From positions 4,786,001 to 4,850,000 of the forward strand of contig NZ_CP035088.1 of the NCBI RefSeq assembly GCF_004786035.1: a stretch of 64,000 nucleotides of DNA. The letters are read 5' to 3'. This DNA is from Pseudomonas viciae. GTDB taxonomy: Bacteria > Pseudomonadota > Gammaproteobacteria > Pseudomonadales > Pseudomonadaceae. Positions 49,220 through 56,760 of the stretch are shown piece by piece (within the stretch, counting starts at the first letter, position 1; the number at the start of each line of letters is the position of its first letter). The notes under the pieces were generated by a model. The model was not told where the DNA came from and ran no database searches. It worked only from the letters and a program-made list of their open reading frames with translations. The translations under genes and the position numbers were made by a program.

Positions 49220-49777
49220 ATGCAAGACGACGACTTTTCCCTGTTCAAAAGTGCGATCCAGGGCGTAAAACCGATCAAGCACGATCGCGCCGAGACCGGC
49301 AAACCCAAGGCCGATCGCGCACAGATCGCCAAGCTGCGCCAGGCCGCCACCGTGCGCACCGACGCCACCACCGTGGATGGCCTGTCCGATCAGTTCGTGA
49401 TCGACGTAGGCCCTGAAGACGAGTTGATGTGGGCGCGCGACGGCGTCCAGGAAAGCCAGATGCGCAAGCTGAAGGTTGGCCAGATCCCCTTCGAAGGCAG
49501 CCTCGACCTGCACGGCATGACCGTCGAAAAGGCCCGGGAAACCCTCTGGGCCTTCCTGGCCGAAGCCACCAAATTCGAAATCCGCTGCGTGCGCGTCACC
49601 CACGGCAAAGCCGTGCGCCTGGATGGCAAGCGGCCGATGATCAAGAGCCACGTCAACACCTGGCTGCGCCAGCACCCGCAAGTGCTGGGCTTCACCTCCT
49701 GCCAGGCGAAACACGGTGGAGCCGGCGCGGTGTACGTGATGCTCAAGCGCACCATGATGGAAGGTCGCGACGAGTAG
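49220..49777 (+). CDS. Smr-domain (MutS2 C-terminal-like) protein
   Basis: A 185-residue protein with a basic linker (1-85) and a C-terminal Smr domain. SLDLHGMTVEKARETLWAFL near 95, RVTHGKAVRLDGK near 127 and CQAKHGGAGAVYVML near 165 are the LDxHG, THGxG-like and GG-x-G-V-V core motifs. Smr domains are nicking endonucleases in MutS2 and in stand-alone SmrA/SmrB; SmrB cleaves mRNA at collided ribosomes. GGAGG lies just before the ATG. In Pseudomonas this gene directly precedes folE; here folE is cut. Confidence 0.9.
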   Translation: MQDDDFSLFKSAIQGVKPIKHDRAETGKPKADRAQIAKLRQAATVRTDATTVDGLSDQFVIDVGPEDELMWARDGVQESQMRKLKVGQIPFEGSLDLHGMTVEKARETLWAFLAEATKFEIRCVRVTHGKAVRLDGKRPMIKSHVNTWLRQHPQVLGFTSCQAKHGGAGAVYVMLKRTMMEGRDE

Positions 49778-49854
49778 CGCCCGATTGCCGAGCTTGCAGC
49801 GCCGTGTCCGCCACCGTACCCTTGCCCTTTGCGTAAAATCCCACAGGTAGTTTC

Positions 49855-49887
49855 ATGTCTCTGGAACAGAATTACACCGCTATGTAG
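49855..49887 (+). pseudogene. folE: 5' remnant of folE (GTP cyclohydrolase I)
   Basis: ATG TCT CTG GAA CAG AAT TAC ACC GCT encodes MSLEQNYTA, the first nine residues of Pseudomonas FolE, preceded by an AGGTAG ribosome site. The next codons read ATG TAG, and no FolE sequence follows. The gene is broken after the first bases of codon 10, and foreign sequence begins. FolE makes dihydroneopterin triphosphate for folate; another folE copy, or a 5' end rebuilt at the other island border, is expected. Confidence 0.8.
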
Positions 49888-49972
49888 GGCGGGTTCAGCT
49901 TGGTGTTCAGAGGTAATGAAATCGGGGGGTTTGTGCTTAGCGCTACCTGATTTCTCTCGCCACAACGCAACC

Positions 49973-49992
49973 ATTGGTACGGAAATTGGTAC
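49973..49992. repeat. Tandem ATTGGTAC repeat near the island border
   Basis: ATTGGTACGGAA and ATTGGTACGAGAA start 12 bases apart, about 90 bases inside the junction. Short direct repeats at this distance resemble the arm-type sites of tyrosine integrases (inference). Confidence 0.4.
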
Positions 49993-50011
49993 GAGAACTC
50001 ATGCATCCCAG

Positions 50012-50047
50012 AGCCCCGCGTCGGTAGAAACGACACGGGGCTTTTCT
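50012..50047 (+). terminator. Hairpin with U-tract near the island border
   Basis: AGCCCCGCGTCG / CGACACGGGGCT, one mismatch, loop GTAGAAA, followed by TTTTC on the plus strand. Confidence 0.7.
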
Positions 50048-50370
50048 TAGCTGGAGCCCCCCTTTTTGCTCGCTCAGTGTTGGCTTTCGGCCAGAAGCGG
50101 ACATTCATAGATCGGAGCGCGTGTACACACCCGACCATAGACACGCTATCCACAGATTATGTAGCCTCAGGGAAGGTCTTGTCCCTTCTGCTCAATTGCT
50201 AGTTGGCTTTTTTCAAGCGTTTAGTTCAAGGGAATCAAGGGGTTACGAATATAGGGAAGGTTTTGCGACAGATGTGGCGCAACTACTCAATAAATGTCGC
50301 CTACCTGTAGCTATGTGCACCTAGCTAGATTAAGTCACTTCAATGTTATTATCGGCACTAATTAAAGGTA

Positions 50371-51030
50371 ATGCTAATAGTGAAAGAAACCCTTGGCAGG
50401 TTATATTTATGGCAAATAGCCCTCAATAAAATCATTGATCTTCTGGCACTCAGGCAACGAGTTGATCGCTTCTGCAACACTGGAAGGCCTCTGCATATCA
50501 CCGAATTATATGATGATGAGCGCAGAAGATTGAAAACTGGCCTGCACCTTGATGGGGAGGCACTGGACAGCTTCGAAAAAGAACATGGCTCTTTATTTCC
50601 TGATGTTCATGACATCCATCTTATTCACGAGCTAATAACTGAAGAAATAATAATTAAATTCTGCACTATATTTAACGATGCCTATGGGAAAGCAGGGGTT
50701 ATTGCCACCAATAAGAAAGCGTTTCGGGAGCCGATTCTCGACGAGATAATTTCAGAGGCTTTTTCCGGTGATATTAAAATAAAAGTTAATAAATTTATAG
50801 AAACCGCCAAATCATACCGAAACAAGCACGGCGCTCACTTTGACCAAGAAAGCTTTACAATGACGCATGGCGATAAAAATCCCGATGAAGATGGGGTTAT
50901 TTATAGCGTAGGCTGGAGTAGCGCTTTATTGACTTTTAATTGGGAGTTTGTAAGTGACATCATCCCCGCTTTAAATAAATCCTTAAATAATTATATTAAA
51001 AAACTACAAAAAGAAGCCGGCATAATTTAG
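50371..51030 (+). CDS. Unknown protein with HEPN-like RN-x4-H motif (first cassette)
   Basis: A 219-residue, AT-rich gene unlike its core-genome neighbours. The protein is mostly helical, with long helices around 5-35, 65-105 and 120-148, then SYRNKHGAHF (Arg150, His156), similar to the R-x(4-6)-H motif of HEPN RNases and toxins. The C-terminus is a Lys/Asn-rich helix. The start may instead be GTG 50380, which is better spaced from AAAGG. An attC-like site begins just after the stop, making this a probable integron cassette. HEPN assignment is tentative. Confidence 0.65.
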   Translation: MLIVKETLGRLYLWQIALNKIIDLLALRQRVDRFCNTGRPLHITELYDDERRRLKTGLHLDGEALDSFEKEHGSLFPDVHDIHLIHELITEEIIIKFCTIFNDAYGKAGVIATNKKAFREPILDEIISEAFSGDIKIKVNKFIETAKSYRNKHGAHFDQESFTMTHGDKNPDEDGVIYSVGWSSALLTFNWEFVSDIIPALNKSLNNYIKKLQKEAGII

Positions 51031-51041
51031 AAAGTGGCTTT

Positions 51042-51127
51042 GGCACATAATAATTGGTTCAAATCGGTTGCTCCGCTCACTGGGACGGGCTAAATCCCGT
51101 CCCCTGCCCCTTACCTAATCGTTAGAG
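51042..51127. repeat. attC-like recombination site 1 (integron cassette end)
   Basis: It starts with CATAATAATTGG, contains a hairpin GGGACGGG-CTAAAT-CCCGTCCC and ends CCTAATCGTTAGAG. The 3' core GTTAGAG (51121-51127) is close to GTTRRRY, and the 5' core is degenerate. It is clearly related to the site at 51868-51944, sharing AATTGG, the CGCT-ACTGGGAC stretch and TAATCGTTAG. Confidence 0.65.
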
Positions 51128-51138
51128 TGACCAAATCC

Positions 51139-51873
51139 ATGGACACGGAAATAATTTTAGACTGTTCCGACCAAAACACAGCATGGTCAACTGTCTGTAA
51201 AATATTGAACACAGATAAATCGACTCTTGCCTTACTGCTCAAGCCACTCGATCCTTATCAGGATCACACATATAAACCGGAAGAATACATTTACAAGGAA
51301 GTTTACAATGCGCTTGGAAGCTCTAGATCAGAGATTAAGGCGATGTGGTTTCATGGTACTAGAACTAATGACATAGCCTCTTTCCACACAAGAGGAATTC
51401 TCCCTAAGAGCGCAATAAAGAAAGATATAGAACATGCTCTAATTTCTCTATCTTCTGGAATAGAAAGGAAAGGAAATAATCGATTCAGCATGTCAATCCA
51501 GGCAAAACAAACCCCTGCTGATGAAGGGCCCTTTGCTGTCCTTTTTAAAGAGGTAGCGATTCATGCTCCAGGAGCCAATCATAGCTACTTAGACACTCCA
51601 GAAATGATTGAAGATATCGCAGGAACCTTACTTGGTGAAAATTATGACAAGCTTGTCATGCGATACAGGTCAATAACAAAGCCATATGTGATAACTTTCG
51701 TAGGAGAGGCCGGCCAACATGAGTTGTCGCTGGCGCTTTGGTATCTTCATTCAATTGTCGATGGTGATCCACCCGTAGATGCTGCGGAAAGGGCTAATAC
51801 TTGTTTCAATTCTAATGGCATAACGATAGACCCCATGAGGATTATTAGGTATGAACTAATAGATAATGTATAA
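51139..51873 (+). CDS. Unknown protein with ART/PARP-like H-G-T motif (second cassette)
   Basis: A 244-residue protein from an AT-rich gene. MWFHGTRTNDIASFHTRGILP (residues 69-89; His72, Gly73, Thr74, Gly86) looks like the first NAD-binding element of ADP-ribosyltransferase folds, where HGT is followed by a helix and a G-I/L-x-P turn. A later AIHAPGANHSYLDTPE is near 145, and the C-terminus ends DNV with the stop inside the attC core. I chose ATG 51139; GTG 51127 in frame is an alternative. The gene lies between two attC-like sites, so it is one complete cassette. ART function is inference. Confidence 0.65.
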   Translation: MDTEIILDCSDQNTAWSTVCKILNTDKSTLALLLKPLDPYQDHTYKPEEYIYKEVYNALGSSRSEIKAMWFHGTRTNDIASFHTRGILPKSAIKKDIEHALISLSSGIERKGNNRFSMSIQAKQTPADEGPFAVLFKEVAIHAPGANHSYLDTPEMIEDIAGTLLGENYDKLVMRYRSITKPYVITFVGEAGQHELSLALWYLHSIVDGDPPVDAAERANTCFNSNGITIDPMRIIRYELIDNV

Positions 51874-51944
51874 CAATTGGTGAAAATCGCTAACTTCGTT
51901 CGCTGGGACTGGCTAAAGCCCGCCCCTTAGCTTAATCGTTAGGT
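51868..51944. repeat. attC-like recombination site 2 (integron cassette end)
   Basis: A 77-bp element from GTATAAC (51868-51874, fits RYYYAAC) to GTTAGGT (51938-51944, fits GTTRRRY). The outer arms pair (TAACAATT with AATCGTTA) and the centre folds (GGGACTGGCT-AA-AGCCCGCCCC). The stop codon TAA of the upstream gene lies in the left core, which is typical of cassettes. Confidence 0.75.
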
Positions 51945-52444
51945 GCTTATGCACATTTTTCTCGGACTGGTTTCCGCTGCACTCCAATCCAGCCAAGGAT
52001 GCGGGCATTAGAGTCTGCTATTGGCCGAAAGCAGCCTTTACCACCAATGATGGATTGGACGGGTTAACCGCCGGACCTGCTGCTCCGCTTGCTTATGAAC
52101 GTTTTCCTTGTCCATCCCGTAGCAAATACTTAGCAATCGCGGCTTGGCCTCCTCCAATCGGTGCGGCGCTTCAAGTCAACCTGTCTCGCCGTACCTCCAC
52201 CTCCCCGCTCCATGCTGGCAGCAACAATCACAATCGCAGCGAGTGCTATCCTTTAACCCTTGGGCAACCGAGTCGATCCCCTTAGCTAGCTGCTAGCGAG
52301 AGGGGGAAAATTGAGTGGATAAAATCAGCTAAAGCATGTCACGACCACTGCTCAACGATGTGCTCACCGTACCGAAAATAGCGCCTTTTTTGGGCATGCT
52401 CGTCCGTACGCCCTAATCCTTTCACTACATCGAGGTTTTTTGCT
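51945..52444. other. 500 bases without a recognisable gene
   Basis: Follows the second attC-like site. Only short open frames occur: a 20-codon frame from 51949 and a 76-codon frame without ribosome site at 52055. GCTAGCTGCTAGC at about 52285 is a short palindrome. It could be a decayed cassette; I see no third attC site with confidence. Confidence 0.45.
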
Positions 52445-54490
52445 TTGATACCAATTCCTGAGGCGACGGATATTCCCGAGGCGACCATACACAAGGCTTT
52501 AACAAAGCTCTCCTGGAAACTACTTAAGAAAGAAATTGATAAGCTCTCCTTGCACAAACGTCCATTAGAATTGCTCCAAGTAGTCATGCGGTCCGACTCG
52601 CTAATAAACAAACGAAAAAATTTAGACAAATCAAAAAAACGTGACGTATTACTTAACGAACTAATTAATTACATAGAAATCAAAACCAAAGGTAAACACC
52701 TCGAAGCCTTCAAGAAAAAACTAGGTTTTTTTACCATCGCAGATGAATGCTTCAGCGAAATTTTAGAATTTGAAGGGAAGCTTTCGGCATTAAAGGATCT
52801 CACGCCTGCAACTAGAATCTGGGCCACACTAAATTGGTTCATCGGCGACGCAAACACCTTACAAAAAAAAATTGCAGATGAATTTCTTGGACCTGAGCCT
52901 GTTTTATTTAACACTCTCTCCGTACCTGGAGAGTCCGGCGAGCCAATCGATCCTTCTTCCTATCATGCTCAGCAAGTCGGAGCACTTGGCTCCGCGATTT
53001 TAATGGAGGCTTACCGTAACAACTGGTTCGATCCGGATGGGACTGTTGTAATCCCTGACAAAGTCGAAACTTCGGAAGAGGAGATTTTCAAGTCTGGCTC
53101 TATATTTTACAACGCAAATATTTGGGCGCTTATCGATGATTTACAAGAGCAAGTCCGCTTCCTTGGGCGTGATTTTTTTATTCATTCAAAAGACAAATAC
53201 ACTAACCCGCCGGGAGACTTTAAATTTGGAATTGAGTTTGGAGAGAACACTGACGCCGAAATTTTCGACCACGTCGCGGGAGTGAGAAACAACACAAGAG
53301 AATCATCAAATTTTTTTTCATTCAAAAGAGATAAACAACTAAACTCATTCCTCGATGCGACGGCAGCCATTACCGGCTCACACTCTGTCAAGGAACACTA
53401 TCTCGCATCCTCGTCTCTTTCAGTACTCTTGAATTACAACATACTAGAAGATGAAACCATTTACGAAGGATTAACTCTCACTGAATGGATCGAAGGATTT
53501 TGCGGTTTACGAGAATACTGCTCGAAACTACATTCCTCCTCCGCAGCAGCAGATGAAAAACCTCTCGGCTCTGAGCTGATCAGTTTCACTCGGGAGTCAA
53601 TCTTAGAACACCTCATGTCTCGTGGTGCATCACAAGAAAGCGCGGCGAATTTTATCGACAACATAACTTTTCACCGAAAAGCTAGAGACCTATTCGACAG
53701 CCCACTGATAAAAACCTCAAGCGGCTACGCTGTCGTTTCAGATATACTTTTAGACAGCGTAGCCAGTAGAGTTATAGCTTCAAATATATTAAGTCGAAAA
53801 GGCGAATTCAAATTAAAAGGCGGGGGACTAGAAAGCACACTTAAAGACATCTTCAACACAAATGGCATTGACGCGGTAAGTTACAAAAGAAAATTCCCTG
53901 AACCCGAAGGAGAATTTGAATATGACACGCTAGCACTATGGGATAACAAATTATTTGTCATGGAGTGTAAGAACAGGTGGCTTTGCGAAGGGCGGCCTGT
54001 TGCGATCTATAATTACCTTAAGCAAACTCGCAGTGATATAGCTCAAGTTAATAGGCTAATCACTGGCATAAAATCTCACCCAGAGATGGTAAGCGCCGCG
54101 TTTGGTCGCAACGTATCTTACGACGAAATAATTCCCTGCGTGGTTGGAGGCCTCCCTCACGCAATGCTAGACAGTATTTCCGGTATATACTTTACAGATA
54201 TTTCTATTATATCTAGATTCTTTTCCAAACGTTATTTTGATGTCGAATTCGGAGATGAAAACGACGGCGACTCGATACTGCTCTATGATCAGTGGAACGC
54301 AGATAAGCCTTCGGTTTCAGAATTTCTAAAAGCTATCTCCCGCCCTGTCCAAATTATTCTTGCACTGGGGGGTACGGACTTCAAAATTGTAGAAACTGCC
54401 GTGGGGTCTTCTATTCACTTAAAATCCAAGCTGATATCAAGCAAACACCTCGATCTCTCAGCCTACAAAGAACTGGTAAGTCAATTGTAG
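52445..54490 (+). CDS. 681-residue protein with PD-(D/E)XK nuclease-like C-terminal domain
   Basis: Large AT-rich gene beginning with TTG (52445); GAGG lies eight bases upstream, and the next ATG is 47 codons in. Residues 1-450 are a helical region with no domain I recognise. Around 455-545 lies a nuclease-like core: Glu463 in GLESTLKDIF, Asp494 in FEYDTLALWD, Glu507-x-Lys509 in FVMECKNRW and Gln534 in SDIAQVNRL, the order of PD-(D/E)XK folds (restriction, Mrr, NERD-like). A last segment of about 120 residues follows. No methylase is paired with it. A stand-alone defence effector is a reasonable inference. Confidence 0.7.
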   Translation: MIPIPEATDIPEATIHKALTKLSWKLLKKEIDKLSLHKRPLELLQVVMRSDSLINKRKNLDKSKKRDVLLNELINYIEIKTKGKHLEAFKKKLGFFTIADECFSEILEFEGKLSALKDLTPATRIWATLNWFIGDANTLQKKIADEFLGPEPVLFNTLSVPGESGEPIDPSSYHAQQVGALGSAILMEAYRNNWFDPDGTVVIPDKVETSEEEIFKSGSIFYNANIWALIDDLQEQVRFLGRDFFIHSKDKYTNPPGDFKFGIEFGENTDAEIFDHVAGVRNNTRESSNFFSFKRDKQLNSFLDATAAITGSHSVKEHYLASSSLSVLLNYNILEDETIYEGLTLTEWIEGFCGLREYCSKLHSSSAAADEKPLGSELISFTRESILEHLMSRGASQESAANFIDNITFHRKARDLFDSPLIKTSSGYAVVSDILLDSVASRVIASNILSRKGEFKLKGGGLESTLKDIFNTNGIDAVSYKRKFPEPEGEFEYDTLALWDNKLFVMECKNRWLCEGRPVAIYNYLKQTRSDIAQVNRLITGIKSHPEMVSAAFGRNVSYDEIIPCVVGGLPHAMLDSISGIYFTDISIISRFFSKRYFDVEFGDENDGDSILLYDQWNADKPSVSEFLKAISRPVQIILALGGTDFKIVETAVGSSIHLKSKLISSKHLDLSAYKELVSQL

Positions 54491-54655
54491 TTTTTGGGGC
54501 GGGCATCAACGCCCATCTCCTTAGTAGCATCCGCTGTCCGCTGCGGGTCAAAATTGTGCTTTTGATCGGCGGCTTACGGCCACGTCAGTCCTTTCTGCTA
54601 CCCTTGATGGTGCTTATGAATGGCACGCAAAACCGATATGCGCCGTAGTTGATAC

Positions 54656-55420
54656 CTAGCTAGGGACAAGCGTTATGTCCATCTTAAATTCGAGCGGATT
54701 GTGGCTCATTCTGAATAGCTTGATTTTCTTTTCGATAGCTATCGCAGTTATTTCCTCTTCAATTTTCGGACAACATTTTGACCCGAGATAAAGTGCTTTA
54801 GGACTAGGCATTGAAAGGCTTTCTTCACCATTCCCAGGCACTATCAAACGCCATTCTTTTTCATATTTCCAATCAATCGCCTTGTGAAGAGCAGGCAAAA
54901 GCGGTATTAAACTGGAGCTGACCCGAGAAAAATATCTACTAAGATCGAACAACTTGTCACGATAGAAAACTGGCCAAAGCTGCAACGCAATCGAACTCTT
55001 CTCGTTCGGCCCATACTCTATGGCAAACCCTTTATGCTCATTGGCATAGTGAGTCCACATTAGCATTGACTCAATCGACTCGCTAAAGCAGCAGATTCTC
55101 ATCGACTTCCTTATTGGAGCAAAGATCATATGATCAAGGATTTTTCTTTCCAGCTCATTTCCCCTTATTGCTACGCTGAAAAGCGAATCGTAAGGATCAT
55201 TAAACGATTCGGGCAATGTCATCCGAACTTGATTGTTCCGAAGATTACTTACGTCCCAGCAATTGCCACTCTCGTCATACCTTCCCAGACGATATTTGAA
55301 TATCGATTTAGGCATAACACTCTGCTTTAGAAGCTGTGCCGCCTTGATATCAGCCGCCATAAAATCATCTACTGTAGCAATTAGCTCCACAAGCTCGTCA
55401 TAAATCTTTTCCGCATCCAT
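54656..55420 (-). CDS. DUF2971 protein
   Basis: A 254-residue protein with DUF2971 signatures: LPESFNDPYDSLFSV near residue 75, MLMWTHYANEHKGFAIEYG near 120 and WKYEKEWRLIVPG near 182. DUF2971 proteins are common in mobile and defence islands, and their activity is unknown to me. ATG 55420 is chosen, with a weak GGAT upstream; an in-frame ATG at 55477 has no ribosome site. It is convergent with the nuclease-like gene and 62 bases downstream of umuC on the same strand. Confidence 0.82.
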   Translation of the reverse strand: MDAEKIYDELVELIATVDDFMAADIKAAQLLKQSVMPKSIFKYRLGRYDESGNCWDVSNLRNNQVRMTLPESFNDPYDSLFSVAIRGNELERKILDHMIFAPIRKSMRICCFSESIESMLMWTHYANEHKGFAIEYGPNEKSSIALQLWPVFYRDKLFDLSRYFSRVSSSLIPLLPALHKAIDWKYEKEWRLIVPGNGEESLSMPSPKALYLGSKCCPKIEEEITAIAIEKKIKLFRMSHNPLEFKMDITLVPS

Positions 55421-55482
55421 GGCTTTATCCGTACGCAGGCTCAGAGGTGAATGCAAGTGTAGTTGACTTATTTGCATTAAAA

Positions 55483-56760
55483 TTATTTACAGGCGACCAC
55501 CCACAATTGATCTAGCTTCGTAGTGAAACTTCGACTCATCATGCCTCGTCGCATCCCCCAATCTGGACTGACTGGTACGCTCGCTGATCGAAGCGTCCCG
55601 CTGCCCCATCGCCCGTTGACCTGGTCCAACACCGCCATCAGTTTCGTGGCGTCGATAGGCTGAGAGGTGGCAAACAGGTCCTCGGTGTACTCCCCTTGCT
55701 GACAAAGGTTCATCAACAGCACCTCAGCCTTGCTGTATTTGAAGCCCGGCCGGAATACCCGGTCGAGCGCGTCAACCGCAGCCTTGGTGAGCAACCGGAC
55801 ATCGTCGGTGGGGTACGGCAGGTCAATCAACACGCCGTCGGCGTACTTCGCCTCCTCGGGGTTAAACATACCGGTGCGGATGCTGACGCGGACCTTCTTG
55901 CACAGCGACTTCTGAGCCCTGAGCTTTTCCGAGGCGCGCATCATGTAGGTGGCCACCGCTTCCTTGATTGGTGCCAGCTCCGTGAGGCGCTTACCGAACA
56001 TCCGGCTACAGCAGATCTCCTGCTTCGGCGGGTTCGGCTCGTCCAGCTCCAGGCATGGCGTGCCGCCCAGCTCGCGGGCGGTCTTCTCGATCACCACGCT
56101 GAACTTCTTGCGCAGTGTCCATGGGTCAGCCTTCGCCAGGTCCATCGCTGTCTTGATGCCCATGGCGTCTAGGTGCAGTTTCATCTTGCGACCGACGCCC
56201 CAGACCTCGGCCACGTCCGTATTGCGCAGCACCCAGTCACGCTTGAACGGGTCGCAGATATCAACCACGCCGCCCGTTTGCACCTGGAGTCGCTTGGCCG
56301 TGTGATTCGCCAGCTTCGCCAGGGTTTTCGTGTGAGCGATCCCTACCCCAACCGGGATGCCGGTGCAGCGCAGCACCTGGCTGCGGATCTTCCGGCCGAG
56401 GGCATCCCGGCCGTCAATGCCGGTCAGATCCGCGAAGGCTTCATCGATGCTATAGACTTCGACGGCCGGCACCATCGATTCAATTAGAGTCATCACGCGC
56501 TCGCTCATGTCTCCATAGAGCGCGTAATTAGACGAGAACGGGACGATGCCGTGCTTCTGCAGCTTGTGCTTGATTTGGAAATACGGCTCGCCCATTTTCA
56601 CGTAGGGCTTGGCGTCGTAGCTTCGAGCGATCACACAGCCATCGTTGTTGCTTAGCACCACAATGGGCACACGGGCAAGATCCGGGCGGAACACTCTTTC
56701 GCAACTGGCGTAGAAGCTATTGCAATCGACCAGGGCGAAAACCGACTGGACTTTAGACAT
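55483..56760 (-). CDS. umuC: Y-family DNA polymerase V catalytic subunit UmuC (RulB-like)
   Basis: Error-prone translesion polymerase of 425 residues. The palm motifs FALVDCNSFYASCERVF at the N-terminus (metal Asp) and YSIDEAFADL near 103 (catalytic Asp-Glu) are intact; VGIAHTKTLAKLAN near 140 and VWGVGRKM (helix-hairpin-helix) near 190 follow. The C-terminal little-finger and UmuC-specific tail are complete. It overlaps umuD by eight bases. Plasmid- and phage-borne rulAB/umuDC copies are common in Pseudomonas; this one is island-borne. Confidence 0.96.
   Translation of the reverse strand: MSKVQSVFALVDCNSFYASCERVFRPDLARVPIVVLSNNDGCVIARSYDAKPYVKMGEPYFQIKHKLQKHGIVPFSSNYALYGDMSERVMTLIESMVPAVEVYSIDEAFADLTGIDGRDALGRKIRSQVLRCTGIPVGVGIAHTKTLAKLANHTAKRLQVQTGGVVDICDPFKRDWVLRNTDVAEVWGVGRKMKLHLDAMGIKTAMDLAKADPWTLRKKFSVVIEKTARELGGTPCLELDEPNPPKQEICCSRMFGKRLTELAPIKEAVATYMMRASEKLRAQKSLCKKVRVSIRTGMFNPEEAKYADGVLIDLPYPTDDVRLLTKAAVDALDRVFRPGFKYSKAEVLLMNLCQQGEYTEDLFATSQPIDATKLMAVLDQVNGRWGSGTLRSASVPVSPDWGMRRGMMSRSFTTKLDQLWVVACK

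Follow-up and report, generated by a model that had tools for sequence, protein, structure and literature searches.

A probable integrase-less fragment of a Pseudomonas-type chromosomal integron in a Pseudomonas viciae prophage

The 64,000-nucleotide stretch of Pseudomonas viciae DNA analysed here (the window; all coordinates are its own unless marked otherwise) very probably carries an integrase-less fragment of a Pseudomonas-type chromosomal integron, which lies inside a 42-kb prophage and is nowadays likely to travel as phage cargo rather than be shuffled by the integron integrase, IntI. An attI-like site precedes cassette 1, and the unit therefore reads attI-like site, cassette 1, attC1, cassette 2, attC2. 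Its features and borders are the following.

49861 to 49883, no strand assigned: left att core of the prophage, lying in the disrupted 5' end of folE
50083 to 50102, plus strand: left arm of an imperfect inverted repeat, 20 nt, 85% complementary to 52013 to 52032
50255 to 50316, plus strand: attI-like site found with an attI profile, with a worn core GCTATGT at 50310 to 50316
50371 to 51030, plus strand: cassette 1 gene, 219 aa, product predicted to be helical
51045 to 51127, plus strand: attC1, 54.1 bits with covariance model R2
51127 to 51873, plus strand: cassette 2 gene, 248 aa from GTG, or 244 aa from ATG at 51139
51868 to 51944, plus strand: attC2, 70.1 bits with R2, holding the stop codon of cassette 2
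51945 to 52028, no strand assigned: right end of the shared unit, present in P. viciae, P. batumici (G079) and G247
52013 to 52032, minus strand: right arm of the inverted repeat, pairing with 50083 to 50102

The attC sites and their decay

The attC calls rest on R2, a covariance model built for this analysis from 57 attC sites in five integrase-linked Pseudomonas arrays (G014, G118, G180, G248 and G266), and not on the models of IntegronFinder or HattCI. Training started from 69 merged attC matches, which gave 62 distinct full sites and, after five aberrant ones were dropped by eye, 57 aligned sites. In these, pairing between the hand-drawn R and L boxes holds in 94.4% of cells versus 90.4% in column shuffles, and it falls to 47% or less once the boxes are slid. 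In the window search R2 matched the bottom strand at both attC1 (E 3e-13) and attC2 (E 5e-18), these E-values being rough owing to a short calibration. Both scores are far above chance, and R2 found no further attC in the window. Elsewhere in the P. viciae genome a single match up to E 5 was found (21.9 bits, E 0.15) among the 150 of 2317 first-look candidates that were scored. A search of Rfam over 49700 to 55500 reported no attC family and gave only two matches, each under its gathering score.

An earlier note, made from the letters alone, had described two related elements with the layout of integron attC sites, and the full R2 matches support this. The elements are where it placed them, attC1 starting at 51045 by R2, and they end in GTTAGAG (51121 to 51127) and GTTAGGT (51938 to 51944), as it had said. 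Its GTATAAC with an embedded stop codon is equally real: the motif occupies 51868 to 51874 and contains the TAA (51871 to 51873) that ends the cassette 2 gene. It also proposed pairing outer arms. R2 matches both sites over their full length; at attC1 the left outer box is ACATAAT instead of the expected nnnnAAC, and pairing of its arms is imperfect. When each site is folded on its own as DNA, attC1 is more stable than its shuffles (z of -2.3 and -2.4 for the two strands), while attC2 is no more stable than its own (z of -0.4 and +0.9).

Similar sites were sought in the genus, no more than three candidates being scored in each genome. DNA like attC2 was found in at least 67 of 298 same-genus genomes, that of P. 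viciae included, and 32 of the other 66 encode an IntI over the TIGR02249 cut-off. Among the matches listed, attC and intI are no more than 10 kb apart in 22 of these 32 genomes, and five such genomes hold tandem arrays of 7 to 18 copies within the stretch fetched. The earlier note had pointed to the Pseudomonas chromosomal integrons as the place to look for such sites; this is where they were found, as tandem arrays adjoining intI and not as a widespread non-integron repeat. Pseudomonas chromosomal integrons were reportedly the subject of work by Vaisvila and colleagues in 2001. In the types of its attC and attI sequences the window array agrees with the chromosomal integrons that supplied the R2 sites, but unlike them it has no intI and only two cassettes. 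Overall, the covariance model supports both sites as attC of the Pseudomonas chromosomal-integron type.

Both sites also look worn. Of the 29 columns that are invariant in the training sites, which by construction show no changes there, four are changed in attC1 and three in attC2; the counts elsewhere are three and five in P. batumici, seven in G247 and eight in G043. The unpaired G in the L box of an attC matters for the choice of strand; attC2 is without it, and attC1 is without the G of its left box. Judged by these changes, both window attCs are probably weak or dead. With no integrase present, they have probably drifted.

The attI-like site, the cassettes and the missing integrase

The attI profile was built from 17 attI sites directly beside intI, taken from 20 intI loci (L045 to L064); loci L065 to L074, with other attI types or a truncated intI, were left out. 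Searched with nhmmer, it matched the window at 50255 to 50313 (E 2.5e-5), the P. batumici copy of the unit (E 3.3e-9) and G372 (E 2.7e-4), with no further match at E < 1 in 371 kb. When the four closest training sites were removed, the window and P. batumici matches weakened to 5.3e-4 and 1.1e-6 and G372 dropped off the list. The reversed window gave a best match of only E 2, and the profile found no site in G043, G227, G045 or G247, nor in any of the five viral contigs that carry cassette 1. What the profile detects in the window resembles the Pseudomonas attI sequence that ends in GTTRRRY at the first cassette, here with a worn core, and the match is a modest one.

The first bases of a true cassette complement the left box of its attC. 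In 51 neighbouring pairs of array cassettes 5.39 of 7 positions match the complement of the left box, versus a mean of 3.31 and a maximum of 3.80 in 2000 shuffles. For cassette 1, whose start was picked by eye and later proved to fall where the attI match ends, the ends agree at 6 of 7 positions in the window (TATGTGC against GCACATA), likewise at 6 of 7 in G247 though with letters that differ from those of the window, at 3 of 7 in L093 and at 4 of 7 in P. batumici, the last being no better than the crossed pairing there (4 of 7). For cassette 2 the score is 5 of 7 in P. batumici but drops to 2 of 7 in the window, and crossed pairings gave 2, 3, 1 and 4 of 7. The proposal that both genes upstream of an attC are cassettes gains from the attI-like site, the attCs and the ends of cassette 1 in the window and G247, and loses on the ends of cassette 2 in the window and of cassette 1 in P. 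batumici.

The product of cassette 1 is predicted to be helical and, on weak evidence, may be HEPN-like, HEPN proteins being marked by an R-x4-6-H motif within a helical bundle; it had no Foldseek match at E <= 0.001. For cassette 2 an ADP-ribosyltransferase-like fold is predicted. Apart from weak matches of the chance kind, PADLOC, PHROGs and NCBIfam assigned neither protein to a family. Enterobacterial plasmids carry distant relatives of cassette 2, which in all four records examined (L111, L112, L113 and L114) directly follow a gene annotated as a HEPN nuclease, and the two genes possibly form a module.

A complete integron has intI beside attI, whereas the P. viciae genome encodes no protein over the TIGR02249 cut-off of 265 (best 84.5 bits); the earlier note had seen no intI nearby. 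Its seven sub-cut-off matches are of the ordinary tyrosine-recombinase type, and the search gives matches below the cut-off in all 14 control genomes as well. A remnant of IntI to the left of the attI-like site was sought by protein and by DNA, and nothing above chance was found; the region 5' of the attI match has only a weak visual similarity to an intI leader. By the part of the IntegronFinder 2.0 paper drawn on here (PMC9024848), the default threshold for a CALIN is two attC sites without an integrase. With two attCs called by R2 and no intI, the array counts as a CALIN by this published rule. The array resembles such a CALIN in both respects and differs from it in that it adds an attI-like site and sits in a prophage. 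A cluster of attC sites lacking an integrase, as the earlier note had it, is right for the two attCs and the missing IntI, and incomplete in that an attI-like site is also kept.

The prophage and the relatives of the unit

The folE gene is broken at 49857, and an intact folE starts 42 kb to the right. A 23-base repeat with 21 identical positions links the two places, at 49861 to 49883 and at 92080 to 92102 of the extended window (G000:C1:4878080-4878102), the latter at the start of the intact folE. Between these att cores lie genes of phage integrase, terminase, portal, head protease, tail sheath, tape measure, tail fibre and endolysin families. With its integrase, structural genes and flanking att repeats, the 42-kb region is a prophage. 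The array had been assigned to a prophage flank; it lies instead within the prophage, just right of the left att core.

The stretch between attC2 and umuC looks like a cargo locus of the prophage. It encodes a 681-aa protein with weak NERD/PDDEXK-like matches (52445 to 54490) and a DUF2971 protein (54656 to 55477) that matches the PADLOC candidate defence family PDC-S31 (6e-42). At the other end of the prophage, to the left of folE (G000:C1, about 4877800 to 4878030), a stretch reads by eye as if the end of the prophage integrase gene were repeated there, and it may be an older prophage remnant.

A related prophage occupies the same smrA/folE site in G372 (L107, G372:C22:336000-353000), with 91% identity in the smrA flank and 71 to 77% in the backbone, and there the attI-cassette 1 unit is in the opposite orientation to that of the window. 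This prophage carries other cargo, including an apparent protein kinase gene. P. batumici (G079:C52) holds a copy of 50087 to 52027 that is 89% alike, and the DNA around it there is unrelated to that of the window. In G247 cassette 1 is broken and the right end is shared, but a single attC (29.3 bits) stands where the window has attC1, cassette 2 and attC2; it is a state without cassette 2, as gain or loss of that cassette by IntI would leave. The right-end segment, 51945 to 52028, occurs in three of 298 same-genus genomes (P. viciae, P. batumici and G247), which are those with the attC-bearing unit. G247 also holds a further attC-like site of 50 bits about 7.4 kb from its cassette 1 unit (L110:818-893, on G247:C39).

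Cassette 1 was found in seven of 398 same-genus genomes and in five viral contigs. L093, L115, L116 and L117 share a phage backbone with the window, and L094 shares only short pieces. R2 found an attC at five of the 12 cassette 1 loci (the window, P. batumici, G043, G247 and, in part, L115); L093 has a broken attC that is seen by alignment only. Adjoining the cassette 1 gene of L093 is a gene for 474 aa (L093:807-2231) that looks by eye like a caspase-type peptidase. Cassette 2 is rarer: it was found in three of 398 same-genus genomes, in one of which the match is weak and partial, and it had no match in viral contigs. Neither cassette had a protein match in phage records, nor cassette 1 in plasmids. 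The only phage record to match the DNA of 49790 to 55500 is Shewanella phage M16-3 (two accessions).

Origin, movement and meaning

The DNA shared by the unit's relatives starts about 170 bases left of attI and stops 84 bases right of attC2. These edges lie outside the att sites, and the last move of the piece was therefore made by something other than IntI. We suggest that IntI would have built the array in a host integron, and that a piece without intI, with attI still attached, would then have been cut out, entered a phage lineage and settled in its cargo locus, with its edges at the inverted repeat. Lacking an integrase, its att sites would drift and its cassettes would stay fixed unless an IntI were to work in trans. 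At present the cassettes are likely carried by the phage, and both cassette genes may serve the lysogen.

The strongest alternative, possible although we consider it doubtful, makes the unit a non-autonomous transposable element, bounded by terminal inverted repeats and with integron DNA as its chance passenger. A 20-nt inverted repeat lies at the edges and the homology to P. batumici, which starts at 50087, ends there; in G372 the unit is inverted, although the prophage that holds it belongs to the same family and occupies the same site. However, the motif TCGGCCAnnAGCrGAC occurs elsewhere too (five exact copies in the P. viciae genome, two of them here) and also beside apparent IS ends, inspection by eye showed no duplicated target site, and the unit has no transposase gene. 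This alternative bears on how the piece moved and not on what it is. As an observation in its own right, TCGGCCAnnAGCrGAC (50083 to 50102 and 52013 to 52032; L107, L110 and L038) is a dispersed Pseudomonas repeat, several copies of which abut GACTTTTTCAACAGAAT, which looks like an IS element end.

One could also regard cassette 1 as an ordinary phage cargo gene and the attC pair as a late graft rather than the remains of an integron platform. Relatives of cassette 1 adjoin the same phage genes in L093, L115, L116, L117 and G372, and R2 found no attC at seven of the 12 cassette 1 loci, so the gene also lives without an attC. We nevertheless hold a late graft to be unlikely: an attI-like site lies 5' of cassette 1 in the window, P. 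batumici and G372, the left end of cassette 1 matches the attC left box at 6 of 7 positions in two genomes, and attC remnants persist in L093 and L115 among the same phage genes, a pattern that agrees better with loss than with gain.

Insertion of cassettes at secondary, attG-like sites has been published for integrons in general, and a host IntI could have put free cassettes straight into the phage in this way. This is very improbable here, since both edges of the unit lie outside att sites and are common to P. batumici, an attI-like site is present, and the two cassettes arrived together. To read the two elements as an intergenic repeat unrelated to integrons deserves hardly any credence: like sequences are scattered in Pseudomonas, often away from the arrays seen adjoining intI, but tandem arrays do adjoin intI, the bottom-strand pairing shows compensatory changes, and the cassette ends are complementary.

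Beyond the reading of the unit as an integron fragment moved as phage cargo, a bolder view would have a temperate phage lineage carry an integrase-less platform of attI and attC as a docking site, to be loaded in trans by the integron integrases of its hosts; phages would in this way acquire bacterial gene cassettes, transport them and pass them on. We rate this as improbable.

Phage-borne attC clusters without an integrase are already published, and the window array is a new, well-resolved case of that kind. The part of Qi et al. 2023 drawn on here (PMC9892861) gives 17 CALINs and several integrons in phages; the Shewanella prophage M16-3, listed there as integron-bearing, has a CALIN with its own attI. 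Like those CALINs, the window array combines at least two attCs and cassette genes, without an integrase, in a phage or prophage. It differs in that it is from Pseudomonas, of which that part of the paper names no case, that its attI-like site and attCs are decayed, that the unit is also seen outside phages, and that relatives without cassette 2 or without an attC are compared here.

Overall, the unit offers a worked example of cassettes leaving a chromosomal integron, with attI, cassettes and attCs but no integrase in a temperate phage, and its relatives display steps of its decay. If the phage is active, it would allow a direct test of the transfer of integron cassettes by phage.
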